NCBI RefSeq assembly: GCF_021352225.1
Contig: NZ_JAAUVI010000001.1
Location: 1,150,191 to 1,214,190, forward strand
From: Methylobacterium sp. C25
GTDB lineage: Bacteria; Pseudomonadota; Alphaproteobacteria; Rhizobiales; Beijerinckiaceae
Length of the DNA: 64,000 nt
Reading direction: 5' to 3'
Within the stretch, counting starts at the first letter, position 1; each line of letters begins with the position of its first letter. Both the position numbers and the translations under genes were made by a program. Shown here piece by piece: positions 4,232-56,487 of this stretch. Below the pieces are notes generated by a model that worked only from the letters and a program-made list of their open reading frames with translations, was not told the DNA's origin and made no database searches.

Positions 4232-4564
4232 GCGTCCGCATCCAGCAGCGTCAGCGTGTTGGCCCTGAATCGCTTCGCTGCAATCCTGATGATGACGGTC
4301 AAGGCCGCCGATCAGACCCGTTCCAAATACCCGCTAACCCCTTGCTGCGATTCCTTCGCCGGCATTCCGAATCCGCGGAACCGTCGCCTTGCGCAGGCCC
4401 GCAGTGCCATGCTACGGCCACCGCGCGCTGGAGGGGGGGTGTCGTCACTCGCCCGGACTGACGGCGCATCCCCTTTCTCCCTCGGTTCACCGAGCCGCCG
4501 CCTTCCATCGACGGTGGTCACGCTCGGAAGAGACTGAAGGGCACGAAAACGAAGAGAGCGACGG
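4232..4564. other. Intergenic region before the ATP synthase operon
   Basis: A 333-bp gap without a credible gene. It must hold the atp promoter, but I cannot point to a secure -35/-10 pair. A purine-rich stretch (AAGAGAG) about nine bases before the GTG start of atpH is the likely ribosome site. Open frames here have no coding character. Confidence 0.5.
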
Positions 4565-5134
4565 GTGGCGCAGAACGGTTCCGAAGGTGCTCTGGTCTCC
4601 GGTGTGGCAGGCCGCTACGCCCTCGCGCTGTTCGAATTGGCGCGCGACGAGAACCAGGTCGACGACGTCTCTCAGAACCTCGATCGGTTCGAATCCCTCT
4701 ACAATGACAGCGACGATCTGCGTCGGCTCGTGAAGAGCCCCGCGTATTCGGCCGATCAGCAGGAAGCCGCGATCGTGGCCGTCCTGTCCAAGGCCGGTAT
4801 CGGCGGTCTTGCCGCGAACTTCGTCAAGCTGGTCGCTTCCAACCGCCGGCTTTTCGCCCTGCCCGACATGATCCGCGGCTATCGCGAGAAGGTCCGCGAA
4901 TCGAAGGGCATCGTGCGCGCCGAGGTTCGGGTTGCCGAGAAGCCCTCTGAGGCTCTGCTCAAGGACATCGAGCAGACCCTGCGCGAGGTTGCCGGCTCCG
5001 AGATCCAGCTCGATCTCAAGGTCGATCCGAGCCTGATCGGCGGCCTCGTGGTCAAGATCGGCTCGCGCATGGTCGATGCCTCGCTGCGTACCAAGCTCAA
5101 CGGAATCCGCCTCGCCATGCATGCTGCCCACTAG
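4565..5134 (+). CDS. atpH: F1 ATP synthase subunit delta
   Basis: Delta subunit of the peripheral stalk joining F1 to F0; 189 residues, normal for the family. It has the OSCP/delta pattern: N-terminal VSGVAGRYALALFELA and C-terminal DLKVDPSLIGGLVVKIGSRMVDASLRTKL. The start is GTG, supported by the purine-rich AAGAGAGCGAC upstream. First gene of atpHAGDC. As usual in alphaproteobacteria the F0 genes are not adjacent. A 63-bp gap separates it from atpA. Confidence 0.96.
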   Translation: MAQNGSEGALVSGVAGRYALALFELARDENQVDDVSQNLDRFESLYNDSDDLRRLVKSPAYSADQQEAAIVAVLSKAGIGGLAANFVKLVASNRRLFALPDMIRGYREKVRESKGIVRAEVRVAEKPSEALLKDIEQTLREVAGSEIQLDLKVDPSLIGGLVVKIGSRMVDASLRTKLNGIRLAMHAAH

Positions 5135-5197
5135 GGCGTTGCAGGCGGCTCACTGACTTCGCGACAGACGTCCGACACTTTCAAAGAAGGCCCGACG

Positions 5198-6727
<1,530 letters not shown>

Positions 6728-6804
6728 TCCGACTTCGGCCAATGGCGGGCGTGTTCACGCGCCCGCCTTCGACGTGACGCTCGCGAGAGACCGGAAATTT
6801 CCCG

Positions 6805-7695
6805 ATGCCGAGTTTGAAGGATCTGCGGAATCGCATCACTTCGGTGAAGTCGACGCAGAAGATCACCAAGGCCATGCAGATGGTCGCTGCCGCCAAGCTG
6901 CGGCGCGCCCAGAATGCTGCCGAGGCCGGCCGCCCTTACGCTGAAAAGATGGCCGCGACGCTCGGCAATCTCGCCGGCAACCTTGTGGGTGGCGTCGGCG
7001 CGCCGAAGCTGCTCTCGGGCACCGGTGAGGACAAGACGCACCTCCTCGTCGTCTGCACGGCCGATCGCGGCCTGTGCGGCGCCTTCAACTCGTCGATCGC
7101 ACGACTCGCTGCACGGCAGGCCCGCGATCTGCAGAGCCAGGGCAAGACGGTGAAGATCTTCACCGTCGGCAAGAAGGGCTACGACCTGCTTCGCCGCCAG
7201 TTCCGCGCGGAGATCATCGAGAACATCGATATCCGCGGCACCCGCCCGGTCGATTACGAATTCGCCTCCGAGATCGCGGAAAAGATCATCGCGCGTTTCG
7301 AGAATGGCGAGTTCGACGTTGCGACGCTGTTCTATTCCGCCTTCCGGTCGGTGATCTCGCAGATCCCGACGGCGCAGCAGCTGATCCCGGCCGAGCTGCC
7401 CGAATCCGATGGCAAGACCACGACAGGCGCTTCGGCCGATGCGGCTCTGGAATTCGAGCCGAGCGAAGAGGCGATCCTCGAAACGCTGCTGCCGAAGAAC
7501 CTGACCGTGCAGATCTACAAGGCACTCCTCGAGAACGCGGCTTCCGAGCAGGGCTCGCGCATGAGCGCCATGGATTCCGCCACCCGCAACGCGGGCGAGA
7601 TGATCAAGAAGCAGACGCAGATCTACAACCGGACGCGTCAGGCCATGATCACCAAGGAACTCATCGAGATCATTTCGGGCGCGGAAGCGCTCTGA
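6805..7695 (+). CDS. atpG: F1 ATP synthase subunit gamma
   Basis: Central rotor shaft of F1, 296 residues. The N-terminal helix [36 protein letters not shown] and the C-terminal helix ([14 protein letters not shown], then [12 protein letters not shown]) form the coiled coil seen in all gamma subunits; only short parts are quoted here by key residues. The middle holds [12 protein letters not shown] small acidic/Thr-rich insert lies near residues 205-220, as in other alphaproteobacteria. 27 bp before atpD. Confidence 0.97.
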
Positions 7696-9177
<1,482 letters not shown>

Positions 9178-47885: not shown

Positions 47886-48175
47886 GGCCGGTGACCCTGT
47901 CACGGGAAAAGCATCCCTGGAACAGGACCCGATTATGGTTAACGAAATCCTGCGAAGCGCGGGCGAACGAAAGGTACGGATCGCCGTTCGTGAGGGAAAG
48001 CGGCTGAGTCCGGCGGGAGGAGCAAAATGGGGGCAAATTGCCGCCATCCTTCTGTCTCAGTACTCGAATGATAGGGCCAACGCGGCCTTGGCCCTTCATT
48101 CGTGTGGGTGGCCAGGTCGACAGCGCGCAACGTCACAGCGTGGCCGAAGTTTATCCGGACCGACCGTCACCGATC

Positions 48176-51100
48176 ATGCAACCGACATCCCGGATGGACC
48201 GCTCCACGGCCGCGCGTCTCGCGGCCCTGGAACGATACGACATCCTCGACACACCGGCGGAGCCCGGTTTCGACGACATCGTCGGATTGGCGGCTGAAAT
48301 CTGCAAGACGCCGGTGGCCTTGGTCAGCCTCGTCGCGGACGACCGACAATGGTTCAAGGCCCGGATCGGCTTCGACGCCTGTGAGACGCCCATCGGGCAA
48401 TCGGTCTGCGCCCATGCCCTGGCCCAGCCGGGGCTGCTCGTCATCCCCGACCTGACCCAGGACCCTCGCACCCGCGACAACACGCTGGTGACGGGCGAGC
48501 CGCATATCCGGTTCTATGCCGGCGCCCGGCTCGAGACGCCCGAGGGAGAGGCGATCGGCACGCTCTGCGTCATCGACGGGCAGGCCCGGCCGGCCGGGCT
48601 CACCACGCGGCAGGCACTCGCTTTGGAACGCCTCGCCCGTCAGGTGATGACGCAGATGGAGCTGGGCCGGGTAGCCGCTGAACGCGATGCCGCTGCGCGG
48701 CGCGCGCGAGAGGCGGCCATCCGCCATCGGCAGATCCTCGACAGTGCCCTCGACTATGCCATCGTCACGATGGATCTCGATGGAAGGGTGACGAGCTGGA
48801 ACGCGGGCGCGGAGCGCATGCTCGGCTGGTCGGAGGCCGAGACGGCCGGCCGAACGACCGAGATGTTCTTCACGCCCGAGGAAGTGGCGGCCGGCAAGCC
48901 CGAACGCGAGATGCGGGTGGCGCGCGAGCAGGGACGCGACAGCGCCGAGCAGTGGTACGGTTGCAAGGACGGATCGCGCGTCTTCGCCCTCGGCGAGATC
49001 ATGCCACTCACGGCAGCCGACGGCAGTCATGTCGGCTACCTGAAGATCCTGCGCGATCGTACGGAGCAGCGCAGCCTCGACGAACGGTCTCGGCTTGCCG
49101 AAGACGCGCTGGCGGAGTCAGAGGAGCGCATGCGGCTCGCCGTCGACGCCACCGGCATCGGCATCTTCGACTACGCGCCGGAGAAGGACGATCTGCGCTG
49201 GGATGCGCGCGTTCGCGAGATCTTCGGAATCGGCCCCGACGATCCCGTGACCTACGAGGGCAGCTACCTCGCCGGACTTCATCCCGACGATCGCGATGCC
49301 GCCGATGCGGCGGTCCGGGCGGCTACAGATCCGGCAGGCTCGGGCCTTTTCGACATCGAATACCGCGTCCGTGGCATCCGCACCGGCATCGAACGCTGGA
49401 TCGCTGCGCGCGGCAAGTCTACCTTCGAGGACGGCCGACAGATCCGCTTCGTCGGCACGGTGCGCGACGTGACGATCCGCAAAGCCGCCGAGTTCGCCGT
49501 GCGCGCCACCGAGGAGCGCTACCGCCTGGTGACGCGGGCGACGAACGACGCGATCTGGGACTGGGACCTCGTAGCGGACCACGTCCTCTGGAACGAGGCC
49601 CTTGGCACCACCTATGGATACGACCTCGCCACGGTGGGGACCACCGGCGAGTGGTGGCTCGATCACGTCCACCCGGAAGATCGTGCCCGGGTCGAGGAGG
49701 ATATCCGCTCCGCCATCGCCGGGACAGGCAGCGAGTGGAGCCACGAATATCGCTTCCGCCGCGCGGACGGCAGCTACGCCGACGTGCTCGATCGCGGCTA
49801 CATGGTGCGTGGCAAGCGCGGCGAGCCGCTGCGCATGATCGGCGCGATGCTCGATTTGTCCGAGCGCAAGCGCGACGAGCGGCGCCTGCGCGAGATGAAC
49901 GCCATGCTGGAGGAGCGGGTCGAGGAGCGTACCCGCGAGCGCGACCGCACTTGGAGCGTCTCGCAGGACCTGATGGTCGTCATCGACACCAAGGGTATCT
50001 TCCGGGCGATCAGCCCGGCCGCGGTGGGGATCCTGGGCTGGCAGCCAGAGGACATGCTCGGCTGCTCGGTCTTCGACTTCATACATCCCGAGGACCAGGC
50101 CCGGACGCTCGACGCATTGCGCTTCGCTTCCGAGCACGCCCTGCCGCCCTTCGAGAACCGATATCGGCACAAGGACGATACCTATCGCTGGATGTCGTGG
50201 ATCGCCGCGCCGGAAGGCGACCTGATCTACGCCACCGGCCGTCACGTCACCGCGGAGAAGGAGCAGGCCGAGGCGCTGGCCAAGACCGAGGAGGCCCTGC
50301 GCCAGTCTCAGAAGATGGAAGCGGTCGGCCAGCTCACCGGCGGCATCGCGCACGATTTCAACAACCTGCTCACCGGCATCTCGGGAAGCCTGGAGCTGCT
50401 GCAGAGCCGCGTGAGCCAGGGGCGGCTCGCCGATGTCGACCGCTACGTCAATGCTGCGATGGGCGCCTCGAAGCGCGCCGCCGCTCTGACGCATCGCCTG
50501 CTCGCCTTCTCGCGCCGCCAGACGCTCGATCCGAAGCCCACAGACGTGAATCGCCTCGTCGCGGGAATGGAGGAGATGATCCGCCGCACGATCGGCCCGG
50601 AGATCGCCCTGGAGACCGTCGCCGCCGCGGGCCTCTGGTCGGTGATGGTTGATCCCTCGCAGCTCGAGAATGCGTTGCTCAACCTCTGCATCAACGCCCG
50701 TGACGCCATGCCGGATGGCGGCCGCATCACCATCGAGACCGCCAACAAGTGGATGGACGAGCGCGCGGCCAGGGATCGGGACCTTGAGCCCGGCCAGTAC
50801 CTCTCGCTCTGCGTCACCGATACCGGCACGGGCATGGAGCCGGACGTCATCGCCAAGGCCTTCGAGCCGTTCTTCACCACGAAGCCGATCGGTCAGGGCA
50901 CGGGACTCGGGCTCTCGATGATCTACGGCTTCGTGCGCCAGTCGGGCGGCCAGGTGCGGATCTATTCGGAGGTTGGCGAAGGCACCACGATGTGCCTCTA
51001 CCTGCCCCGCCACTACGGCGCGGCCGAGGAGGGCGAGGTGGCCCCCGATCTCGCGAACGCTCCGCGCGCCGAGCAGGGCCAGACCGTGCTCATCGTCGAC

Positions 51101-51445
51101 GACGAGCCGACGGTGCGCATGCTGGTGGCGGAGGTGCTGGAAGACCTCGGCTACACCGCAATCGAGGCGGCGGACGGCTCGGCCGGCCTGAAGATGCTGC
51201 GTTCCGATGCGCGCATCGACCTGCTGGTGACCGATGTCGGATTGCCCGGAGGAATGAACGGCCGTCAGATGGCCGACGCCGCCCGCGTGACGCGGCCGGA
51301 TCTCAAGGTCCTGTTCATCACCGGCTATGCCGAGAACGCAGTTGTCGGGAACGGGCATCTCGAACCGGGCATGCAGGTCCTGACCAAGCCCTTCGTGATG
51401 GAAGCTCTGGCAAGCCGGATCAGGGATCTGATCGCCAAGCCGTGA
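48176..51445 (+). CDS. Soluble hybrid sensor histidine kinase (GAF-4xPAS-HK-REC)
   Basis: A 1089-residue cytoplasmic sensor without membrane segments. Order: GAF (about 20-150, DRQWFKARIGFDACETPIGQ); PAS domains near 175, 300, 430 and 580 (for example AIVTMDLDGRVTSWNAGAER); HisKA with phospho-His in TGGIAHDFNNLLTGISGSL; HATPase with NARDAMPDGG and GTGLGLSMIYGFVRQSGG; receiver with Asp in LLVTDVGLPGG and Lys in VLTKPF. Such kinases often answer to light, redox or small ligands. The start could be a few codons later (48194). It ends directly before the GGDEF-EAL gene. Confidence 0.9.
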   Translation: MQPTSRMDRSTAARLAALERYDILDTPAEPGFDDIVGLAAEICKTPVALVSLVADDRQWFKARIGFDACETPIGQSVCAHALAQPGLLVIPDLTQDPRTRDNTLVTGEPHIRFYAGARLETPEGEAIGTLCVIDGQARPAGLTTRQALALERLARQVMTQMELGRVAAERDAAARRAREAAIRHRQILDSALDYAIVTMDLDGRVTSWNAGAERMLGWSEAETAGRTTEMFFTPEEVAAGKPEREMRVAREQGRDSAEQWYGCKDGSRVFALGEIMPLTAADGSHVGYLKILRDRTEQRSLDERSRLAEDALAESEERMRLAVDATGIGIFDYAPEKDDLRWDARVREIFGIGPDDPVTYEGSYLAGLHPDDRDAADAAVRAATDPAGSGLFDIEYRVRGIRTGIERWIAARGKSTFEDGRQIRFVGTVRDVTIRKAAEFAVRATEERYRLVTRATNDAIWDWDLVADHVLWNEALGTTYGYDLATVGTTGEWWLDHVHPEDRARVEEDIRSAIAGTGSEWSHEYRFRRADGSYADVLDRGYMVRGKRGEPLRMIGAMLDLSERKRDERRLREMNAMLEERVEERTRERDRTWSVSQDLMVVIDTKGIFRAISPAAVGILGWQPEDMLGCSVFDFIHPEDQARTLDALRFASEHALPPFENRYRHKDDTYRWMSWIAAPEGDLIYATGRHVTAEKEQAEALAKTEEALRQSQKMEAVGQLTGGIAHDFNNLLTGISGSLELLQSRVSQGRLADVDRYVNAAMGASKRAAALTHRLLAFSRRQTLDPKPTDVNRLVAGMEEMIRRTIGPEIALETVAAAGLWSVMVDPSQLENALLNLCINARDAMPDGGRITIETANKWMDERAARDRDLEPGQYLSLCVTDTGTGMEPDVIAKAFEPFFTTKPIGQGTGLGLSMIYGFVRQSGGQVRIYSEVGEGTTMCLYLPRHYGAAEEGEVAPDLANAPRAEQGQTVLIVDDEPTVRMLVAEVLEDLGYTAIEAADGSAGLKMLRSDARIDLLVTDVGLPGGMNGRQMADAARVTRPDLKVLFITGYAENAVVGNGHLEPGMQVLTKPFVMEALASRIRDLIAKP

Positions 51446-51541
51446 GTGCCGATCTCGGTGGAGGACCCGCTGGTCAGGGCCTCTACTTCACGGTTTCGAA
51501 ACCCGGAGGCTGCTTTTATCCGCAGACGTCCGGATAGGCTC

Positions 51542-53545
51542 ATGGCACCTGGTCTTGCAGGAAACATAGACGCGGAGCTCGGCAAGCGTTGGCAATCCCG
51601 GCGCTCGCCGGCCTTGGCGGAGCTTTACGAGGCGCGCAGCGAGTCGACGCACTGGCAGGATGCGCGCATCTCGTCGCGGCTCGCTGGCATCGTCTACATT
51701 GCGTTCTTCTTCACGGATCTGATCATGATCCGCGACGTGGCGCTCTATAACATCGCCGCGCGCCTCATTATCGGCCTGCTGTTCATCTTCGACATCGAGG
51801 CGCAGATCCGGCGTGGTGTCCGCTCGCGTTGGGTCGATTACCAATGCGCTTTCGGGATCGTCGCCGCCTACGCGACCTGGATGTGGTTCTCGAGCTGCAG
51901 CGTCTATCAGGTCAGTGCCTCATACTACCTGACCTACGGAATCATCTTCATCATCGGTCAGAACGTCTTCTTCAACTTCCGGTTCGGTCTGGCGGTTGTA
52001 TCGTCGAGCGTGATGCTCGGCATCTTCACCCTGTTCTTGTTCTCGAGTTTCTTCAGTTCCACCGAGTACGTGGTCGGAATCGGCACGCTCTACTTCTCGA
52101 CGTATACTCTCACGCTGTTTGTGAACTGGAAGTTGAATGAAGAACGCTACCGCGTCTTCCTGAACTCGCTGCGGGCCGAGATCCGGGAGGATGAGGCGAC
52201 GGAGCGGGGCGCTGCGCTGCTGCGGCTTTCGACGACCGACGCGCTGACGGGTCTCGCCAACCGCCGGGCTATCGACGAGGAGCTGCGTGCCTATTGGGGT
52301 AATTGGCAGTCGGCGGAGAAGAGCTTCGCGGTCATCCTGATCGATGTCGACTACTTCAAGCGCTACAACGATCAGTACGGCCACCAGCGTGGGGACCGCT
52401 GCCTGATCGCTGTGGCCGACGCCATGAAGGCTGCAGCCACTCAGAGTAAGTATGCGCTCGGCCGCTTCGGCGGCGAGGAGTTCATCCTTCTGGTGCGCTG
52501 CCAGACGCGGGAGCACATGGCGCTCGTCGCCGAGGGCGTGCGCCGGGCCGTCGAGGACCTCGCGATTCCGCACGAGCAGCGGCCCGACCCCTGCTTCGTC
52601 GTCACCGTTAGCATCGGGGCCGCCTTCAGCCGGGACATCACCAGCACGAAGGTCGAGCGGCTGGTCACCGAGGCCGACCGTGCGCTCTATGCGGCGAAGA
52701 AGACCGGCCGAAACTGCGTCAAGCTCTTCGACCGGGACGACCCGCTGGAGGTGAACCTCGACGACAGCGTCACGGATCTCCTCCGTGGCGCTATCGCAGG
52801 GGGCCATGTCGCGATGGTCTACCAGCCCATCCGCGACGCGGTCTCCGGCGAGATCGCGGGCGCCGAGGCGCTGATGCGCCTGACCGGACCGAATGGCGAA
52901 TCCATCTCGCCGGCTGTGTTCATCCCGATCGCTGAACGCACCGGGATGATCGTCGAGCTTGGACGGTGGGCGATCCGCACCGCGTGCCGGGAGCTGATCG
53001 CCGAAGACCGCGTCGCGATGGTCAGCGTCAACGTCTCGGCCGTCCAGCTGAGCACCGCGAGTTTTGCGCTGTCCGTGGCCACGATCCTCAAAGAAACCGG
53101 CGTTGCGCCGCACCGCCTGATCGTGGAGGTGACGGAAGGCCTGCAGATCGAGGGCAATCCCGACATCCTCCAAAGCCTGCGGGAGCTTCGTACGCTCGGC
53201 GTGAAGATTTGGCTGGACGATTTCGGCACCGGCTTCGCCGGTCTGTCCTGCGTGCGGGAGGTCGCCTTCGACGCCGTCAAGATCGACCGCTCCTTCCTCC
53301 AGGCCACCGAGACGAAGCGGGGCGCGGAGATGTTCCGCAACATCGTCGGCCTCGTCCGCAATGTCGGCTGCCAGACTGTGGTCGAAGGCATCGAGACCCA
53401 CGCTCAGCAGCAGCTCTCCGCGGAGCTGCAGGTGGACCTGCTTCAGGGCTACCACCTCGGCAAGCCGATGACGGCTGAAGCCCTGCGCTTGCTGGTCGGC
53501 TCGGAGATGGTGGTCTCGCGCGAGAGCGTGCCCGCGTCGGCCTGA
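51542..53545 (+). CDS. Membrane GGDEF-EAL protein (c-di-GMP cyclase/phosphodiesterase)
   Basis: A 667-residue protein with five or six N-terminal transmembrane segments (residues about 45-185, e.g. IVYIAFFFTDLIMIRDVALY), then GGDEF (LGRFGGEEFILLVR) and EAL domains. The GGEEF motif is intact; the usual RxxD inhibitory site before it is absent. The EAL domain keeps AGAEALMRL, VSVNVSAVQL, IVEVTEG, LDDFGTGFAGL, VKIDRSF, TVVEGIE and LLQGYHLGKP, so both activities may work. I chose ATG 51542; an in-frame GTG directly after the kinase stop adds 32 atypical residues. Confidence 0.9.
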   Translation: MAPGLAGNIDAELGKRWQSRRSPALAELYEARSESTHWQDARISSRLAGIVYIAFFFTDLIMIRDVALYNIAARLIIGLLFIFDIEAQIRRGVRSRWVDYQCAFGIVAAYATWMWFSSCSVYQVSASYYLTYGIIFIIGQNVFFNFRFGLAVVSSSVMLGIFTLFLFSSFFSSTEYVVGIGTLYFSTYTLTLFVNWKLNEERYRVFLNSLRAEIREDEATERGAALLRLSTTDALTGLANRRAIDEELRAYWGNWQSAEKSFAVILIDVDYFKRYNDQYGHQRGDRCLIAVADAMKAAATQSKYALGRFGGEEFILLVRCQTREHMALVAEGVRRAVEDLAIPHEQRPDPCFVVTVSIGAAFSRDITSTKVERLVTEADRALYAAKKTGRNCVKLFDRDDPLEVNLDDSVTDLLRGAIAGGHVAMVYQPIRDAVSGEIAGAEALMRLTGPNGESISPAVFIPIAERTGMIVELGRWAIRTACRELIAEDRVAMVSVNVSAVQLSTASFALSVATILKETGVAPHRLIVEVTEGLQIEGNPDILQSLRELRTLGVKIWLDDFGTGFAGLSCVREVAFDAVKIDRSFLQATETKRGAEMFRNIVGLVRNVGCQTVVEGIETHAQQQLSAELQVDLLQGYHLGKPMTAEALRLLVGSEMVVSRESVPASA

Positions 53546-53857
53546 CGCTCTCCAGACGGCTCCCCCATCGACGTCCTTCCTTGTCCTGCGCTTTCCGCGG
53601 CGCGGCGGGCGTCGCACGGTCGTCTGGATACAAAATCCGAAGGCATCGACAATAGAGCGCCGTTAACCTTAAGATGAGGATTTCAAGACGGCGTTTAGCC
53701 TGCTTTCTGGCAAACAGATTTTCCTTGGCTGTGGGTAAGTCGTGCCAAAAGGTTGATAACCCCAGGGCCGGATGCCTGGCATCGGATGTTTTTTGTTTAG
53801 GAGTTGTTAATCTCTCCCTCACTGGAGCGATGTGGCGCGGTCACGTGGTTACCCAGG
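53546..53857. other. Intergenic region before the methyltransferase gene
   Basis: About 310 bp with no credible gene. A weak stem (CCGgATG with CATCGG, about 53768-53785) is followed by six T (53789-53794), which could terminate the GGDEF-EAL transcript. The region is richer in A/T than its surroundings and probably holds the promoter of the methyltransferase. Confidence 0.45.
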
Positions 53858-54778
53858 ATGACCCCGAGTTCTTTCATGGAACATCTTCAGTCGGTTTTGT
53901 CCGAGGCTCAGTCCCGGCTGATCGCCAATCCAAGCCCGGACATCATCGATTGGTTGGCGAAAGAGCTGGGGGCGACCTACGATGAGGCGTCGTCGACCGG
54001 ACAGCTTTCCGAGTTTCGGGCGTCTTGCCGCTCCCACCCGCTGTCCGAAGTCTTCCTGCTCGATCCTTATTCCCGGCGCGCGCACGACAAACCGCGCGGC
54101 TATGCCGGCGACGCGGTCATGCTCGACTACATTTATCGGCCGACGCATGGTCAGCTCGACGGTATGGCCTCGGTGGTCCACCGCGCGACGACTTCGCTGC
54201 CGAATGCGAAGAGCATTCTTTGGCGCCGCGATTACTTGGCGGGCCTGATCCACGACTACATGGGTTCCCGCGAATGCGCCGAGGTGCTCTCGGTGGCTTC
54301 GGGCCACATGCGTGAGCTCGACGCCCTTCGCGAGGCGACAACCGACACCAACGTTCGGTTCGCAGTGCTCGACCAGGACGAGACCTCGATTGCCGAAGCG
54401 AAGGGCGAGTACAGCGAGTTTACTATCGAGGGCCGCGTGGCGAGCTTCGCCGCTCTAATCAAGGAGCGGCGGCCGGTCGCGAGCTACGACCTGATCTACT
54501 CGGCCGGCTTGTTCGACTACCTGCCGAAGGCTCCTGCGGTGGCTTTGATCAAGGCGATGTTCGCCCGGCTCAAGTCCGGCGGGATGCTGTCAGTCGGCAA
54601 TTTCACCCGCGACAGCCACGGCCGTGGCTTCATGGCCGGCTTCATGGACTGGTGTCTGATCTACCGCGACGAAGACGAGATGCGCGCGCTTGCCGAAGCG
54701 GCTTGCCCGAAGGCCTCCTACAAGATCTTCCGAGATCAGCCGCGCAACGTGGTCTACCTCGAGATCTACGCCGAATGA
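53858..54778 (+). CDS. SAM methyltransferase, PhcB-like (fatty-acid methyl ester signal type)
   Basis: A 306-residue enzyme. The SAM fold is CAEVLSVASGHMRELDALRE, with VLDQDETSIAEAK after it, and DLIYSAGLFDYLPKAPAVAL. The upstream block PLSEVFLLDPYSRRAHDKPR then GYAGDAVMLDYIY strongly resembles the family annotated as extracellular-factor 3-hydroxypalmitate methyl ester synthesis proteins (PhcB of Ralstonia). That would make a methyl-ester signal; this is inference from motif memory. ATG 53858 is chosen; 53876 is an alternative. Neighbours are c-di-GMP and histidine kinase genes. Confidence 0.78.
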   Translation: MTPSSFMEHLQSVLSEAQSRLIANPSPDIIDWLAKELGATYDEASSTGQLSEFRASCRSHPLSEVFLLDPYSRRAHDKPRGYAGDAVMLDYIYRPTHGQLDGMASVVHRATTSLPNAKSILWRRDYLAGLIHDYMGSRECAEVLSVASGHMRELDALREATTDTNVRFAVLDQDETSIAEAKGEYSEFTIEGRVASFAALIKERRPVASYDLIYSAGLFDYLPKAPAVALIKAMFARLKSGGMLSVGNFTRDSHGRGFMAGFMDWCLIYRDEDEMRALAEAACPKASYKIFRDQPRNVVYLEIYAE

Positions 54779-54907
54779 GGCAATCTGGCTGAGGCTGCTC
54801 ACGCCGCCAGGCAGGCGCGAGCGGCCTAGCTCAAGATCGATTGTGCCCTAGCTTGTTCAACGACCCATACAGGGTCGCCAAAAACAATCGACCCGAGGGA
54901 ACGTTCA

Positions 54908-55381
54908 ATGCTGAAGATCGCTGTATCGGCCGTGGCTCTGGCCGCGATCGCCGTTGCTCCAGCCATGGCCCTGGAGGTTACCAAGACTGCCAGTATCGCA
55001 GCTCCTCCCGCCGCCGTGTGGAAGACCATCGGCGGCTTCTGCGGCATCGGCGACTGGCATCCCGTCGTCGAGAAATGCATGCTCTCGAAGCAGGGCGCCA
55101 AGCAGCAGCGCATGCTGAGCCTCAAGGGAGGCGGCACGATCCAGGAGGAGGAGCAGGCCCGCGACGACGCCGGCATGAGCTATACTTACACGATCCTCGA
55201 GAGCCCACTGCCCGTTTCCGACTACAAGTCCACGATCTCCGTGGCGAAGGATGGCAGCGGCTCGAAGGTGACTTGGACGGGCAGCTTCAAGGCCAAGGGC
55301 GCGCCCGACGCCAAGGCCCAGGAGGTGATCGGCGGCGTCTACGATGCCGGTCTGAAGGGGCTCTCTGACAAGGCGAAGTAA
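54908..55381 (+). CDS. Periplasmic SRPBCC (START-like) protein, MxaD-like
   Basis: A 157-residue secreted protein with a signal peptide (MLKIAVSAVALAAIAVAPAM). The START-like fold shows ASIAAPPAAVWKTIGGFCGI, GDWHPVVEKCML and FKAKGAPDAKAQEVIGGVY. Two Cys may pair. It resembles MxaD, a periplasmic protein tied to methanol dehydrogenase electron transfer, but it is not in a mxa cluster here. A small hairpin (GACCC with GGGTC) precedes the start. Confidence 0.82.
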   Translation: MLKIAVSAVALAAIAVAPAMALEVTKTASIAAPPAAVWKTIGGFCGIGDWHPVVEKCMLSKQGAKQQRMLSLKGGGTIQEEEQARDDAGMSYTYTILESPLPVSDYKSTISVAKDGSGSKVTWTGSFKAKGAPDAKAQEVIGGVYDAGLKGLSDKAK

Positions 55382-56412: not shown

Positions 56413-56487
56413 TGGTGGACGGTGCAGGGATCGAACCTGCGACCTCTCCCGTGTGAAGGGAACGCACTACCGCTGTGCTAACCGTCC
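56413..56487 (-). tRNA. tRNA-Val (anticodon CAC)
   Basis: Read on the minus strand, the acceptor stem GGACGGT pairs with ACCGTCC. The D arm is GCAC-AGCGGTA-GTGC, the anticodon loop TTCACAC carries CAC at 34-36, and the T arm is GCAGG-TTCGATC-CCTGC. The discriminator is A and the CCA end is encoded. The 75-base cloverleaf has no mismatched stem except one wobble. It reads the GUG codon. It lies between two plus-strand genes. Confidence 0.95.

Follow-up and report, generated by a model that had tools for sequence, protein, structure and literature searches.

What does a homologue of PhcB, from the phcBSRQ system of Ralstonia, do beside a membrane enzyme of cyclic di-GMP (c-di-GMP) turnover? The question is raised by a locus of Methylobacterium sp. 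C25 (contig NZ_JAAUVI010000001.1, positions 1,150,191 to 1,214,190; this whole stretch of 64,000 nucleotides is called the window), in which a PhcB-like methyltransferase gene follows a gene for a protein with six transmembrane (6TM) helices, a GGDEF and an EAL domain. A preliminary description had joined both genes with a histidine kinase before them and a START-like protein after them into one signalling block. All four genes lie where it had placed them, open on the + strand, but the four did not hold together as a block: the conserved unit consists of two genes, 51446-53545 (GGDEF-EAL) and 53804-54778 (methyltransferase), which Methylobacterium and rhizobia repeatedly carry. We see an even chance that this pair is a signal synthase with its receptor and that a methyl ester, as the signal, controls the c-di-GMP enzyme directly. 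The pair comprises the following features (window coordinates):

51446-53545, + strand: 6TM-GGDEF-EAL protein P0002, 699 amino acids (aa) from GTG 51446, probable start at ATG 51542 as judged from homologues (Pfam GGDEF E = 1.7e-43, EAL E = 2e-63)
51608-52141, + strand: six transmembrane helices of P0002, residues about 55-232, from an AlphaFold2 (AF2) model
52232-52714, + strand: GGDEF domain of P0002, residues 263-423, GGEEF at residue 342, without RxxD
52781-53467, + strand: EAL domain of P0002, residues 446-674, catalytic motifs intact
53804-54778, + strand: PhcB-like class I methyltransferase P0003, probable start ATG 53858 or 53876, the proposed signal synthase

Conservation of the gene pair

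A genus set of 111 genomes was searched with a methyltransferase profile (A1) and a separate membrane-domain profile (A2). The methyltransferase was detected in 23 genomes at 29 places (window included), and strong membrane-domain matches (E = 2e-58 or better) in 23 genomes at 26 places; the same 23 genomes hold both. None of the other 88 has the methyltransferase, and they show at most weak membrane-domain matches, which add nine genomes (E 3e-10 to 7e-6, 10 places) and were counted apart. Assuming independent genomes and uncorrected for kinship, the odds of this co-occurrence are 1 in 10^23.6. The partner lies within 2.6 kb of 25 of the 29 methyltransferase places, in varied orientation; the exceptions are both copies at L039 (G174), L051 (G168) and L139 (G215), the last with its partner 18 kb off.

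The same picture was obtained beyond the genus. Among 398 genomes of a phylum sample, 27 contain the methyltransferase family and 12 the strong membrane domain, all 12 being among the 27; for an order sample of 284 genomes, the counts are 19 and 10, all 10 among the 19. The three samples share genomes and, pooled, hold 33 distinct genomes with a strong membrane domain, in all of which (33/33) the methyltransferase was found. In group f3 of the phylum sample, called rhizobial because of its tree closeness to Rhizobium loci, the partner adjoins the methyltransferase in each of the 10 genomes that have one. Six more genomes of this sample have weak membrane-domain matches only (E 6e-13 to 2e-7); four of them have the methyltransferase, on another contig or at least 0.85 Mb away. 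A set of 62 loci, some of them near-copies, gave 58 methyltransferase rows after removal of rows with E > 1e-10 (hence L129 is not included), and 41 of these are adjacent pairs, 29 divergent, 9 convergent and 3 tandem. Five plasmid loci were examined from 144 matching records: four (Rhizobium, Nitratireductor) carry the divergent pair and one (Pantoea) does not. A family search in 149 genomes found the pair in G037 (L146), and in G002 (79% complete) it was not seen on the 16.8-kb contig (L147). The proposed link between methyltransferase and c-di-GMP enzyme is therefore found far beyond this strain, in the genus and in rhizobia; of the gene order suggested in the preliminary description, this part is conserved, whereas the kinase and the START-like gene are not part of it.

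Related arrangements were observed elsewhere. At L039 (5365-10482), two PhcB-like methyltransferase genes stand in tandem, the first 33% identical to that of the window, and their neighbour is a MHYT-PAS-GGDEF-EAL protein in place of the 6TM one. Another PhcB-like group is located about 0.3-1.5 kb from a different GGDEF-EAL gene at L120, L121 and L122 (G310, G307, G393; that of L120 is of the PAS type), and a link to c-di-GMP enzymes may thus have arisen repeatedly. In planctomycetes and myxobacteria (L178, L180, L186, L188, L194, L208, L209, L216), PhcB-like methyltransferases are found near very long frames (1,668-1,983 aa), in which a kinase-like core lies around residues 1,400-1,460.

The methyltransferase and its relation to PhcB

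On sequence evidence, P0003 is a true but distant homologue of PhcB over its full length, which agrees with its first description as PhcB-like. BLASTP aligned it with a PhcB-like protein at E = 4e-17 (26% over 267 aa), and hhalign aligned the two families with a probability of 99.9% (E = 1.2e-35, 251 columns). Both share the motif HPL...P...KPxGYxGD, which is N-terminal to the core. D190 and D192 of P0003 are invariant in the methyltransferase alignment and are likely candidates for contact with S-adenosylmethionine (SAM). By PhcB-like we mean proteins of phc-type operons, named by operon make-up as in PMC10653808; no Ralstonia sequence was compared. Such operons, consisting of methyltransferase, 6TM kinase and receiver-kinase, are present at L124-L129 and on a Paraburkholderia graminis plasmid (L274), the methyltransferase of which is 66.5% identical to P0007. 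At L125 (G607, 4236-7700), the PhcB-like gene ends a 1,155-residue open frame, which is either a fusion or a chance open frame.

We do not file P0003 as PhcB on these sequence comparisons, because the six PhcB-like rows of a 129-row tree form a group of their own (97*) apart from the protein of the window. Moreover, no PhcS-type kinase and PhcR are encoded with P0003, the partner being the 6TM-GGDEF-EAL protein instead. The tree thus places the enzyme outside the PhcB-like group, yet the full-length homology to these proteins is clear.

No Pfam or NCBIfam model names P0003, and only weak generic methyltransferase matches were obtained in Pfam. The AF2 model (76 sequences; predicted local distance difference test score, pLDDT, 96.5) is a class I methyltransferase, and its best structural match is PDB 3ocj of Bordetella parapertussis (Foldseek E = 2e-11; Z 20.9 with the next best at 17.4; 245 residues aligned from within positions 4 to 304 of the model). 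PDB sequence searches with P0003 and with PhcB-like proteins gave nothing useful, and a search with the methyltransferase profile returned only remote class I methyltransferases. The nearest named relatives, among the best 80 of 548, are those of M. brachythecii (95% identity) and M. gnaphalii (92%); both species have the gene pair.

The GGDEF-EAL protein and its membrane domain

P0002 is predicted from its motifs to be bifunctional, making and breaking c-di-GMP. In an alignment of 42 GGDEF-EAL proteins of this family, the one of the window included, 40 have GGEEF and two GGEDF, while EAL is found in 39 and ETL in three; one member is without one later glutamate of the EAL domain. The RxxD product-inhibition site, which is optional in GGDEF-EAL proteins, was found in none of the 42. 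Together with six helices in the model, this confirms the earlier picture of a membrane-bound enzyme with both active sites kept and no RxxD.

The N-terminal part of P0002 was modelled with AF2 (9 sequences, pLDDT 79) as six helices, the long sixth of which continues into the GGDEF domain. As modelled, this domain resembles the six-helix fold of membrane adenylyl cyclases and of ImcA from P. aeruginosa. VIA-align gave a Z of 17.0 both to human adenylyl cyclase 5 (AC5; 211 residues, 3.1 Å) and to ImcA (222 residues, 3.3 Å), followed by 14.7 for AC9 and 10.9 for AC8. Membrane cyclases fill the top 12 rows, with designed helical proteins next at 10.3; Rv1625c, at Z 9.0, scored no better than these designed proteins. 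It is the agreement of the top rows, which are consistently membrane cyclases, on which we base the fold assignment. A PDB sequence search with the 6TM profile yielded nothing useful, and Pfam contains no family for the domain: MASE8 matches none of the nine members of the 6TM alignment and one PhcS-like kinase below cut-off (E = 6.6e-4). Across the 42 proteins, no exception was seen at D91 or R106, whereas Y160 is conserved in 40 and Y161 in 41. The membrane domain itself is the likely sensor, and therefore a membrane-borne ligand would be expected and not the cytosolic one proposed before, for which we obtained no support.

Bridging kinases weakly suggest that the membrane domain is also distantly related to the sensor PhcS. 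The P0002 membrane-domain profile matches the N-terminus of the histidine kinase P0011 of a member of the Micropepsaceae (E = 3e-5), which adjoins a PhcB-like methyltransferase. A PhcS-type profile extended by the L218 kinase, encoded 2.4 kb from a methyltransferase, matches P0011 at E = 2e-6; it also reaches several GGDEF-EAL partners of rhizobia, the best of them at E = 8e-4, or at 1.8e-4 once L284 is included. These bridging kinases (L154, L218, L284) are located beside or near other PhcB-like methyltransferases; at L284 (3234-8514, in the order of the window), the methyltransferase directly precedes a PhcS-type 6TM hybrid kinase (E = 2e-37), accompanied by a receiver protein. Via the bridges, which were chosen because they matched, the similarity reaches P = 1.6e-5. 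In 10,419 frames, all from methyltransferase neighbourhoods and 114 of them with at least five hydrophobic segments, the PhcS-type profiles matched only 6TM proteins by or near methyltransferases, and the same frames reversed gave no match. When P0002-type and PhcS-type domains are aligned, one aspartate, one arginine and a YY or YF pair are seen in both. Weak 6TM matches at L252, L257 and L273 belong to 6TM-GGDEF proteins.

Comparison of trees points to a change of partner. In the 129-row tree, the methyltransferase of the window groups with those of Micropepsaceae and Bradyrhizobium, away from the other Methylobacterium and the rhizobial ones. A single clade of the two Methylobacterium groups was rejected by the approximately unbiased (AU) test (p-AU = 7.0e-4, 28 rows), as was a single clade of both plus the rhizobial group (p-AU = 6.6e-4, 45 rows); the groups were named after the tree was seen, they kept the unpaired rows L039_9562, L051 and L139, and the trees are quick searches with long branches. 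Loci L148-L153, from the same genomes as six of L033-L038, were left out of trees and counts, and the methyltransferase tree also excludes frames shorter than 240 aa or with E > 1e-9. The tree of the GGDEF-EAL partners (25 rows), in contrast, joins the two Methylobacterium types (98*) to the exclusion of the rhizobial proteins. Since the partner tree unites the types whereas a joint methyltransferase clade is rejected, the trees suggest that a single lineage of receptor enzyme was kept while its PhcB-like methyltransferase was exchanged for a distant one. Identity between the two Methylobacterium types is 37% in the 6TM part, 58% in GGDEF and 53% in EAL; the lower 6TM value is as expected if the ligands differ, though this part also varies faster within types.

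Proposed function of the pair and alternatives

From the observed pairing, PhcB homology, modelled fold and motifs, we infer substrate, product, binding and direction as follows. The methyltransferase would methylate a carboxylic acid, with fatty or 3-hydroxy-fatty acids as the likeliest substrates, to give a hydrophobic methyl ester; PhcB itself is a synthase of 3-hydroxy fatty acid methyl esters (3-OH PAME or 3-OH MAME). This ester could partition into the membrane of the cell that made it, and possibly of its neighbours, and bind P0002 at its six-helix domain. From there, the long last helix would relay the change to GGDEF and EAL and so shift the balance between c-di-GMP synthesis and breakdown, probably towards breakdown as the signal builds up, with low confidence on the sign. 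A broader proposal, which we hold with a little less than even confidence, is one-component lipid signalling: a methyl ester made by an enzyme of the PhcB family would bind a 6TM domain of the adenylyl-cyclase type and directly control a c-di-GMP cyclase/phosphodiesterase without a kinase, the same stock of 6TM receptors would serve PhcB-family synthases with kinase or c-di-GMP outputs, and the synthase could be exchanged for a distant one to change the signal.

Several observations weigh against this proposal. Seventeen of the 58 rows are unpaired: five belong to phc-type loci, where a 6TM kinase is present, and 12 have no such kinase. Of nine unpaired order-sample genomes, a 6TM kinase was recognised in G793 and in none of the other eight, two of which offer short contigs at this place. 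In a scan of named genomes, covering the best 80 of 548 relatives, 74 loci (L154-L227) were compared; within the fetched stretch, a 6TM-GGDEF-EAL gene is present at two (Rhizobium sp. L51/94 and Aureimonas sp. ME7) and a 6TM kinase gene at two others, and the remaining 70 show neither. A rough survey of the neighbours of other methyltransferases (10 proteins by Pfam) revealed no common partner. The pairing marks part of the family and not every PhcB-like methyltransferase. The subfamily of P0003 has GHxRE where PhcB-like proteins have GCGPA and is without some 130-150 N-terminal residues present in them, for which the two examples searched (P0009 of L126, P0007 of L128) gave no Pfam match; the substrate of P0003 may therefore differ from that of PhcB. 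Concerning the fold, the best VIA-align Z for helical models without a clear match is about 14, and 17 is only somewhat above this; Foldseek found nothing at E <= 0.001 with the 6TM model, the top match being ImcA (E = 5.5e-3). ImcA, a close fold match that differs from P0002 in having GGDEF only, is governed by the membrane protein IsmP and not by a known lipid (PMC10904736). Direct similarity between the 6TM domain and PhcS, without bridging sequences, is weak (P = 0.023). Run on whole genomes, the PhcS-type profile found the 6TM protein in five of 10 rhizobial (E 6e-4 to 0.5) and none of 10 methylobacterial genomes, with one unrelated match (E = 0.63) and none in five genomes lacking the pair. 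The two clade-test p values, the 70 of 74 loci with no recognised partner and the caution about Z weaken individual strands of the argument and lower its odds slightly; the pairing itself is unaffected.

The best-surviving alternative, which we regard as unlikely, reverses the flow: the GGDEF-EAL protein would sense something else, and c-di-GMP or contact would control the methyltransferase, whose product would be used elsewhere as an envelope lipid or secreted ester. Pair conservation and partner exchange show joint work and not its direction, and the receptor RpfR of Burkholderia also restrains its synthase RpfF (PMC6361424). However, Pfam finds no c-di-GMP-binding domain in P0003, and the PhcB homologues with 6TM kinase neighbours point to a common synthase-receptor logic.

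Modification of a protein by the methyltransferase, possibly of its GGDEF-EAL partner as in CheR-like adaptation, seems less probable again. It would fit the close pairing in every orientation, and one Deinococcus homologue is annotated as 'chemotaxis protein CheR', an annotation only. Against it, the full-length homology is to PhcB-like proteins, the KPxGYxGD motif included, and the association of one 6TM family with two far-apart methyltransferase lineages would be easier for a maker of small molecules than for an enzyme that modifies one site of a protein.

The four-gene pathway of the preliminary description, in which the soluble hybrid kinase is the sensor for a fatty ester in the cytosol, with the START-like protein as lipid carrier, appears very improbable. 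The genes outside the pair are:

48038-51445, + strand: open reading frame of the PAS hybrid histidine kinase, ATG 48176, neighbour judged outside the conserved unit
54908-55381, + strand: START-like protein (Polyketide_cyc2 E = 1.5e-28), apparent signal peptide by eye, neighbour judged outside the unit
56413-56487, - strand: tRNA-Val (cac), the sole tRNA found in the window

The kinase is indeed a hybrid histidine kinase with multiple PAS domains (TIGR00229 in four stretches, HisKA, HATPase and receiver in Pfam/NCBIfam); the GAF domain also ascribed to it is present as a match, but at E = 0.042, under the Pfam cut-off. All four genes are consecutive on one strand here and in G049, and a 53% relative of the kinase lies near the pair in G182 (L044), with a core close to that of the window. 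However, 103 of the 111 genus genomes have relatives of the kinase at E <= 1e-200, whether or not they contain the methyltransferase and mostly at more than one place each, and G166 has the pair without any relative at this threshold; the kinase is thus not supported as the sensor. Among the first 20 neighbourhoods, G049 alone has the close kinase next to the pair, G164 has a fragment of it at a contig end, and weaker pieces are seen at L040, L047 and L049. Likewise, the START-like gene (bits over 60) is beside the pair only in G049 of 20 loci and is missing there in a near relative, which speaks against its membership of the pathway. Joint travel on mobile DNA without joint function is the least probable explanation: the pair has a patchy distribution and is often plasmid-borne in rhizobia, but its adjacency outlasts orientation changes and the swap to a distant methyltransferase, and no genome of 33 has a strong 6TM protein without a PhcB-like methyltransferase.

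Returning to the synthase-receptor reading, the nearest analogue of the pair appears to be RpfF/RpfR of the Burkholderia diffusible signal factor (BDSF) system, with both parts here coming from other families. There, too, the gene of a fatty-type synthase adjoins that of a GGDEF-EAL receptor, and the ligand controls c-di-GMP (PMC6361424). Compared by description, RpfF makes an unsaturated fatty acid that RpfR senses by a PAS domain behind an FI domain, in contrast to the methyltransferase and 6TM domain of the pair; P0002 has no PAS match in Pfam, and the Pfam matches of P0003 are to methyltransferases and not to crotonases. The PhcB/PhcS system of Ralstonia and relatives has a homologous methyltransferase and, as its partner, a 6TM sensor that may be distantly related to the one here (PMC10653808). 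PhcS, however, is a histidine kinase that acts together with PhcR and PhcQ, whereas in the pair the 6TM domain is joined to GGDEF-EAL, and the methyltransferase of the pair belongs to a separate tree group without the N-terminal part of PhcB-like proteins. In CqsA/CqsS and LqsA/LqsS, a dedicated synthase of a lipid-like signal likewise serves a 6TM receptor (partly PMC4821796); their signals are hydroxyketones made by an unrelated enzyme, and the output is a kinase, as judged by description.

We know of no dedicated ligand synthase beside membrane adenylyl cyclases, Rv1625c/Cya or ImcA. These proteins (PDB 8sl4, 7yzk, 8wcn) have the six-helix fold with a long helix into the cyclase, and the model of P0002 resembles them with Z 17.0, 9.0 and 17.0, respectively. 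The ligand of such membrane domains is a long-standing question (PMC4821796, PMC12414865, PMC11606603). In mammalian adenylyl cyclases, lipids act on the 6TM domains (PMC11606603; PMC12414865), and a 6TM quorum receptor grafted onto a cyclase can drive it (PMC4821796). A 2023 genome survey describes PhcB-type signalling as confined to Betaproteobacteria (PMC10653808). In the openly licensed literature, with subscription journals mostly outside, no paper among the matches listed deals by title or abstract opening with the pairing of a PhcB-like methyltransferase and a GGDEF-EAL protein.

In many bacteria, c-di-GMP sets attachment and motility. The pair suggests an undescribed route from a self-made lipid signal straight to this messenger. 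If this is true, PhcB-type signalling would extend to Methylobacterium and rhizobia, joined there to c-di-GMP, and a 6TM domain of the cyclase type would gain a natural ligand made by the adjoining gene. With a likely lipid-ester synthase beside the 6TM domain, this ligand could be traced by deleting or adding one gene.

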